A DNA stretch of 64,000 bases from the NCBI RefSeq assembly GCF_000970305.1, contig NZ_CP009517.1, forward strand, positions 744,001-808,000, read 5' to 3'. The DNA comes from Methanosarcina barkeri 3. GTDB lineage: Archaea > Halobacteriota > Methanosarcinia > Methanosarcinales > Methanosarcinaceae. The notes beneath the pieces are model-generated. The model searched no databases, was not told the origin of the DNA, and was given only the letters and a program-made list of their open reading frames with translations. Below are positions 34,290 to 37,623 of this stretch, piece by piece (the first letter of the stretch is position 1; each line of letters begins with the position of its first letter). A program made the translations under genes and the position numbers.

Positions 34290-34560
34290 GTTATTTGAAG
34301 CTTAACCTTAATTTTGAAGCTTATCCTTAATTTTGAAGCTTATCCTTAATTCAAAGCTTATCCTTAATTCAAAGCTTAACCTTAATTTTGAAGCTTATCC
34401 TTAGTTCAAAACTTGACCTTAATTTGAAGCTTATCCTTAGTTCAAAACTTGACCTTAATTTGAAGCTTATCCTTAACTCAAAGCTTACCTTTAATTCGAA
34501 GTTTACTCTTAATTTTGAGACTTACCGTCAATTATGAAGTTTAACTTTGATTCGAGACTT
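34290..34560. repeat. Degenerate ~20-bp tandem repeats upstream of enolase
   Basis: About a dozen imperfect copies of AAGCTTATCCTTAATTTTG and variants with CTTGACC, CTTACC or GTTTAC. They lie within 320 bases of the enolase start codon, thus in its leader or promoter. Confidence 0.85.
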
Positions 34561-35032
34561 AATCTTAACTTAACCGTTAGATGTCCGAATTGTATTTAAT
34601 TCTTTATCCGGTTAACGGAAATAATTTTAATTAAGTTTTACGCTATTATCTCATAAGAAACCCTATTAATAAATGAAGACTATATATTAAGTTCCCGAAT
34701 CCCGAAACACTTTTGCCTCAAGTATCTGCATCCTTAACTATATGAGTTCAGGAGTATTATACTTCGAGTGTTTGCAAGAGATCTTCTTGTTTTGTAACCC
34801 TTAACTCAGGCTTCCAGAATTTCAGAAATGTCCATTTTCCTGCATACACTAGCTTTAAAGGTTTTGGTCAGAATCACAAGACCGGTTTTTACAAAATCGG
34901 TTTTTTTCCGGGGAATTGTCAATACTAATATTTATATACAAACTTTCCAAAAAAAACTATTAACAGGGTGTGATAGCTGTTTTACTCCTTAACAATACTC
35001 AATTTATTTAAAAAAAACAATTTTATCTACAT

Positions 35033-36077: not shown

Positions 36078-36510
36078 TTAGGCCAGGTTGCAGGTTTGTC
36101 CCTCAGCACGATTGCAGGAGAACAGCTAAGTGCCCTTGCTACCGAAACCCTCTGGTTTTGTCTTCCTTAAAGTTGCCGAACTTTTGATCCATCCGGTCTT
36201 CAAGTACCACCTCTTTAAGGAGGTTTTCGGCAATTTCCTATTCTTCTTACCTGCTTTTTCCTGCAATCAAGAGTCGGCATTAGTATATTTTCCAGAGCTG
36301 TAAAGTTCGGGAACAGGTGATGATACTGGAAGACAAAACCCCAGCATTCCATTTCGCATATCAGAACGTTCTTTATCCGACATATTTGTTACGTCTTTAC
36401 AGTCCATCAGGAGCGTTCCAGAATTTGGGGTGTTCATGCCCTAGCAGGTGCTTAAGTGTGCTTTTGCTTGAAGTGTGTCCTAAAATTTTGATTCTGGATC
36501 CATTGTAAAA
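36078..36510 (-). pseudogene. Fossil ABC-transporter ATPase (LolD/MacB type)
   Basis: On the minus strand, shifting among frames, one reads HTSSSKSTLKHLLG (degenerate Walker A), [55 protein letters not shown], and the place of the signature motif as KTRGFR, followed by a degraded Walker B region. These are the parts of a LolD/MacB-type ATPase in order. Multiple frameshifts and stops make it inactive, and no permease gene survives nearby. Confidence 0.85.
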
Positions 36511-36579: not shown

Positions 36580-37146
36580 TTACCTGATATACGTTATGAG
36601 ATCAAGCTTCCTGTCAGGTACATAGACAACTGTATCTTTCTTATACCCAAATACAGCCGAATAGTAAGGCCTGTATCCCTCAGGTATTTTTAGTTCTTTT
36701 CGCAATTCGGAACCTTGTGATGAATAAAACGCTAATAGAACGAAGAAAATCCACTATGACCCCAGCCCAATTGACTCTGCGGCTAGTAGCAAGTTCTGAG
36801 TAGCGGCGGCACAATCTGCGTCAAGAGGTATGGGTGACTGTTCATTGCCAGAGACAATGATAAGTGTCGGTGCACCATACAAACAATTGAATATCTCATC
36901 AGTTCCTAGTTCCTTTAAATGTCCCAGATTGTGATGTTTTGCGGCTTCTTTAGCTACGATATTCAGTTTGTTCAGTAATTTTTTGTCTTGAATTACTGTA
37001 AAATGCCATGCCTGATCCCCAGCATTAGGAGCGTATAGCCCTGCTTCCAGTACAGCCTGTAATTCTTCCTCTTTGATCTGTTCATCTTTGAAGCTTCTGA
37101 TACTCCTGCGTTGTTTAATGATTTTTAAAGTTTCATTGACAATCAT
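36580..37146 (-). CDS. Nitroreductase-family protein with an in-frame UAG
   Basis: An FMN-dependent nitroreductase: IKQRRSIRSFKDEQI at the N-terminus, LYAPNAGDQAWHFTVI (FMN contact), and DADCAAATQNLLLAAESIGLGS. There the frame meets TAG (36754-36756) and then stays open for 57 codons, WIFFVLLAFYSSQGSELRKE, then LKIPEGYRPYYSAVFGYKKD, to a TAA at 36580-36582. The continuation is the normal C-terminal part of the family, which in homologues follows GLGS with Cys-Trp-Ile. The full reading gives 188 residues, the usual length. In Methanosarcina UAG can encode pyrrolysine, so this is either a Pyl codon, a readthrough stop or a fresh nonsense mutation. ATG 37146 has an AAAGGG SD. Confidence 0.75.
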
Positions 37147-37464
37147 CAAAAGCACCCTTTCTTTAGTTTTGGTTTACAAAAGTCACCAGCCTTTGGACAA
37201 CTAACGTGACTTATTTTTACCACTGACCCTCAATTAAACATGTTAAATATAAAAATTCTTTAATTCCCTTTCTTAATTCTCAAACCTGTGTTGTCGATCT
37301 TTTCCTGTACTTTTTGAACCATTATAGTAAAAAGAGGAATTCTAACTAAGAGCTTTTTGGTATAACACATAAATTACACTGTAACTCACTGAAAACCTCT
37401 GTTTTAGGTTGCTTTTATTTTGAGACAAGAATTCTATAAAAGGAAACCTCTAAAAAGGAAACTT

Positions 37465-37612
37465 CTACAAGAGAAGATTTTTACAAGAGAAGATTTTTAC
37501 AAGAGAAGATTTTTACAAGAGAAGATCTTTACAAGAGAAGATCTTTACAAGAGGAAACTTCTACAAGAGAAAATCTTTACAAGAAAAGATCTTTACAAGA
37601 GAAAACTTCTAC
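37465..37612. repeat. 16-bp tandem repeat downstream of the DMT gene
   Basis: About nine imperfect copies of ACAAGAGAAGATTTTT and variants. An open frame across it (37420-37638) is just the translated repeat (LLQEKIFTREDLYKRK) and I do not call it a gene. Confidence 0.9.
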
Positions 37613-37623
37613 ATTCTGTTCTT

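Follow-up and report, generated by a model that had tools for sequence, protein, structure and literature searches.

Is the UAG that interrupts a nitroreductase frame of Methanosarcina barkeri 3 a site of recoding, or is it simply what a nonsense mutation looks like in an organism that can decode UAG as pyrrolysine? The gene lies in a stretch of 64,000 nucleotides (positions 744,001 to 808,000 of NZ_CP009517.1), analysed as a whole and here called the window, at 36580-37146 on the minus strand, a strand that the earlier note on this DNA did not give and that the translation and the list of open reading frames supply. From an ATG at 37146-37144, with AAAGGGTG directly ahead of it, 130 codons (36757-37146) lead to GLGS and, right after it, a TAG as codon 131 (36756-36754). 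Then come 57 sense codons and a TAA at 36582-36580 (together 36580-36753), so that the frame totals 130 + UAG + 57 = 188 codons. Neither the start codon nor the ribosome-binding site nor the frame is damaged, and a search of the frame for a further lesion, including the 57 codons past the UAG, found none. The read-through frame is a full-length match to Pfam PF00881 (residues 10-168 against profile positions 1-167) with 94 bits, the curated cut-off being 23.5 bits. A search of the genome with the same profile recovered this locus with ‘1 TAG’ inside, and found no internal TAG in the genome's other PF00881 matches. All 57 codons past the UAG can be aligned to orthologues, and the continuation is thus homologous sequence and not a chance open frame. 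As a description of the DNA, a 188-codon protein interrupted by a single UAG after GLGS and continuing to a TAA, the earlier note was accurate.

Can this host read UAG as an amino acid? It has PylS (TIGR02367, 410 bits), a pylT encoding tRNA-Pyl with a CTA anticodon and, adjoining pylS and pylT, open reading frames that by sequence and order read as PylB, PylC and PylD. Its three mtmB genes each have exactly one in-frame TAG. Given a complete pylTSBCD and three such mtmB genes, UAG is readable as pyrrolysine here, as the earlier note stated for the methylamine methyltransferases of Methanosarcina. It is also still an ordinary stop. Among 257 open reading frames of at least 150 codons in a 458 kb sample (394 kb in spread stretches plus the window), 138 end with TAA, 104 with TGA and 15 with TAG. 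The 15 include at least one frame that by its sequence is an mtbB-like pyrrolysine gene (L039), the sole other TAG-ended frame of the sample with a long extension and itself with one TAG inside, so the true share of TAG stops is slightly below 6%.

What do relatives have at codon 131? The closest orthologues, of the uncultured Methanosarcina UBA11020 (94% identical) and of M. spelaei MC-15 (93%), M. spelaei being the nearest named relative of the host, are at the same locus, flanked by the enolase and PCC-domain genes and, on the opposite side, by the EamA transporter gene, the comparison with UBA11020 being limited by a short contig that stops before enolase. Both sister species have TGC at this codon, and the orthologues of Ant1, DH2, G006 and G018 have TGC or TGT. 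A scan of 84,980 species genomes gave 58 loci at which residue 131 was surveyed: Cys is present in all 33 readable relatives, Methanosarcina and bacterial, at 45% identity or above, and below 45% the residue is Cys, Val or, once, Ser. The Cys column is invariant in a 30-member alignment, and the earlier note was right that Cys is the usual residue here. Among the genomes examined the UAG is private to the host, and TGC to TAG is a matter of two base changes in one codon, on the host lineage only. The alignment of orthologues that had been suggested as a check on conservation of the UAG thus yields a Cys codon in all intact orthologues, and a conserved or selected recoding site finds no backing in any relative.

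Might pyrrolysine at 131 nevertheless have been selected, with the nitroreductase thereby gaining an activity that is new or regulated and linked to growth on methylamines? Just the competence of the host and the intact frame speak for this, and we regard it as extremely improbable. The UAG is kept in no relative, and a search downstream of it for a PYLIS-like or otherwise unusual RNA structure found none (z = 0.17). The known selected pyrrolysine genes keep their UAG across species (PMC1914089): that of MtmB, MtbB and MttB is conserved and in the active site (PMC8211752, PMC1914089). While the mtmB and mtbB-like genes of the same host have, as has the nitroreductase gene, one in-frame TAG, the methylamine methyltransferase UAG is a conserved one and that of the nitroreductase is unique to this genome. 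Nor does the family as a whole have a leaning towards UAG. The approximately 155 PF00881 matches listed across 31 Methanosarcina genomes, which reach E ~4e-15, contain one internal stop of each kind, TAA, TGA and, in the host gene, TAG, so that TAG is not over-represented; no other match listed has an internal TAG. On the sequences compared, nothing suggests that pyrrolysine insertion here is selected.

The earlier note had named a nonsense mutation as the simpler alternative, and with the UAG private and Cys in relatives that alternative fits best. The UAG is probably a recent nonsense mutation in a dispensable gene, which would make the gene an incipient, and probably leaky, pseudogene. Is the lack of a second lesion an argument against this? 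The host's own branch has 15 changes, two of which create the stop, and the other 13 are 8 replacements and 5 silent changes. In simulation, 61% of trials with 13 random substitutions produced no new stop, a figure that does not yet take into account that the stop may be younger than the branch, so the missing second lesion says little. Indels are no more informative: the adjoining ABC-ATPase pseudogene differs from its UBA11020 counterpart by 18 mismatches in 396 bases with no indel, so that even a known pseudogene has gained none over this distance. Of the two things named beforehand as telling against recoding, a sense codon in close strains was found, TGC in both sister species, and accumulating lesions downstream were not, on a branch too short for that to count. 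More generally, where sister species are only ~4-5% apart, the lack of further damage argues only weakly for recoding.

Nor need the codon at issue be a mistake of sequencing or assembly for a true TGC. A single isolated lesion is of the kind that earlier screens treated as error or pseudogene (PMC1914089). Against this, two bases of the one codon differ, the genome forms a single 4.56 Mb contig at 99.99% completeness, and the other substitutions on the host branch look ordinary; an error is very unlikely.

Does the branch carry a mark of relaxed selection? Identity to the sister is 96.1% for the nitroreductase gene, near the 95.5% of the adjoining pseudogene and lower than the ~98% of the PCC gene and eno; yet the EamA gene, though intact, has diverged just as much as the nitroreductase gene. 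A codon model gave omega 0.52 on the host's own branch and 0.21 for the background, with log-likelihoods of -1618.85 when free, -1619.54 when shared and -1619.13 at omega 1. Neither a shared omega nor omega 1 is rejected in this low-power test, the own-branch value differing significantly from neither 0.21 nor 1.0, and the value fits relaxation or constraint. Omega does not differ before and after the UAG (0.54 and 0.50). The replacements polarised to the own branch include E56K, A64V, D73N and P181L, for which outgroups agree on the ancestral base, and being at conserved positions in the aligned sequences these mildly tilt the balance towards relaxation.

Whether the gene can be done without is a matter on which other genomes are informative. 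Most of the 31 Methanosarcina genomes lack a close orthologue. The orthologue in G005 (L016) is a frameshifted pseudogene that has lost one base at codon 130 and lacks a proper start; that in G029 (L018), split by frameshifts, is another. That the G005 deletion adjoins the position of the host UAG is probably coincidence. Next to the host gene, at 36090-36494 on the minus strand, is a multi-lesion remnant of an ABC-transporter ATPase gene, identified from its PF00005 match, three-frame translation and synteny. The match (G000:C1:780089-780343) contains one TGA and two TAA, three-frame translation reveals stops and frameshifts, and no intact open reading frame for the syntenic ABC-ATPase was found in M. 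spelaei. With orthologues decayed in two other Methanosarcina and the adjoining ABC-ATPase decayed, the nitroreductase gene is, as judged from these sequences, dispensable. It also seems to have travelled. Four bacterial orthologues (L056, L058, L060 and L061) are 78-81% identical, no more distant than some Methanosarcina copies, Desulfotruncus and Peptococcaceae relatives being 81% identical to the archaeal nitroreductase; this suggests lateral spread, and transfer between Methanosarcina and Firmicutes-type anaerobes is likely.

What would the UAG do to the protein? In its AlphaFold model (mean pLDDT 90.8), the intact M. spelaei orthologue matches the FMN-bound nitroreductase 3ek3 of Bacteroides fragilis, the closest solved structure, with E 1.4e-19, TM 0.89 and 38% identity; the full-length PF00881 profile and the fold are common to both. 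In 3ek3, as in the intact orthologue, an SCW motif follows a helix, and for the Cys of that motif the host gene has UAG. Termination with 130 residues made would remove the helices at 135-140 and 145-151, the strand at 158-169 and the C-terminal arm, together the last third of the fold; to go by the model, such a fragment is unlikely to work.

There is, however, the alternative that the UAG came by drift and is suppressed often enough for a full-length nitroreductase with pyrrolysine at 131 still to work, as proposed for Thg1. The in-frame UAG of M. acetivorans Thg1 is credited by PMC8211752 and PMC3639795 to Heinemann et al. 2009, and the precedents that those two sources cite are Thg1 and transposases. 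That UAG is likewise lineage-specific, in a non-methyltransferase gene of a pyrrolysine-decoding Methanosarcina, and followed by an intact continuation. The complete pylTSBCD, the three TAG-containing mtmB genes, the intact continuation and the read-through reported for an introduced amber codon (below) also favour this alternative. Yet Thg1 is counted among known pyrrolysine-containing proteins, whereas the nitroreductase is known from sequence, and in it UAG replaces an invariant strand residue. Residue 131 is within the predicted strand 128-133 of the M. spelaei model, where the subfamily has an invariant Cys and distant relatives Val (one Ser); the long and much bulkier side chain of pyrrolysine, at a position that in relatives holds only Cys, Val or Ser, is on this model likely to disturb the fold. 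The own-branch replacements, falling on conserved positions, also weigh against it. A working protein maintained by neutral suppression is thus unlikely. More doubtful again is that a full-length FMN nitroreductase with pyrrolysine for the family-invariant Cys is made, at least on methylamines, with redox activity either kept or changed. If it were, a redox flavoenzyme would join the pyrrolysine proteins that lie outside methylamine metabolism, and finding the protein would add to Thg1 another instance of an ordinary enzyme that acquired pyrrolysine by drift. A literature search for a published report of a pyrrolysine nitroreductase in Methanosarcina gave nothing relevant, and the word ‘nitroreductase’ is absent from the main text of two computational pyrrolysine screens (PMC3639795, PMC1914089).

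For the nonsense mutation in a dispensable gene, the course of events may have been as follows. A laterally spread FMN nitroreductase gene that could be dispensed with would have been hit by TGC to TAG in the host lineage. Translation would now mostly terminate at the UAG, yielding a 130-residue fragment that is presumably inactive, and, if the gene is transcribed, a minority of ribosomes may insert pyrrolysine via Pyl-tRNA(CUA) and complete the chain. How large a minority might that be? An amber codon introduced into a reporter in M. acetivorans was, as reported in PMC2933860, mostly terminated, yet gave an apparent 20-30% of full-length pyrrolysine-containing protein without special context. 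Suppression at that level of an introduced UAG in Methanosarcina means that the nitroreductase lesion is probably leaky; and, as the reporter did without special context, no RNA structure is needed, making some Pyl131 protein plausible if the gene is transcribed. In having a sense codon in relatives, in being dispensable and in the company of a decayed neighbour and decayed orthologues elsewhere, the gene resembles single-lesion nonsense pseudogenes. It differs from ordinary ones in that the stop it carries, UAG, is one that the host can suppress, which makes the lesion probably leaky, and it is an example of a UAG-decoding genome carrying such a lesion.

Two features of the flanking DNA may be mentioned. 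Between the nitroreductase and EamA transporter genes, at 37432-37613 of the window, a 16-base unit resembling TACAAGAGAAGATCTT is repeated in tandem, in about 8-11 copies, and the alignment of the window with both sister species breaks near this array, at 37262. Repeated DNA lies upstream of enolase at 34298-34571, where blastn gave several matches that overlap one another and fall at shifted positions in the M. spelaei locus (L055, 6570-6926).
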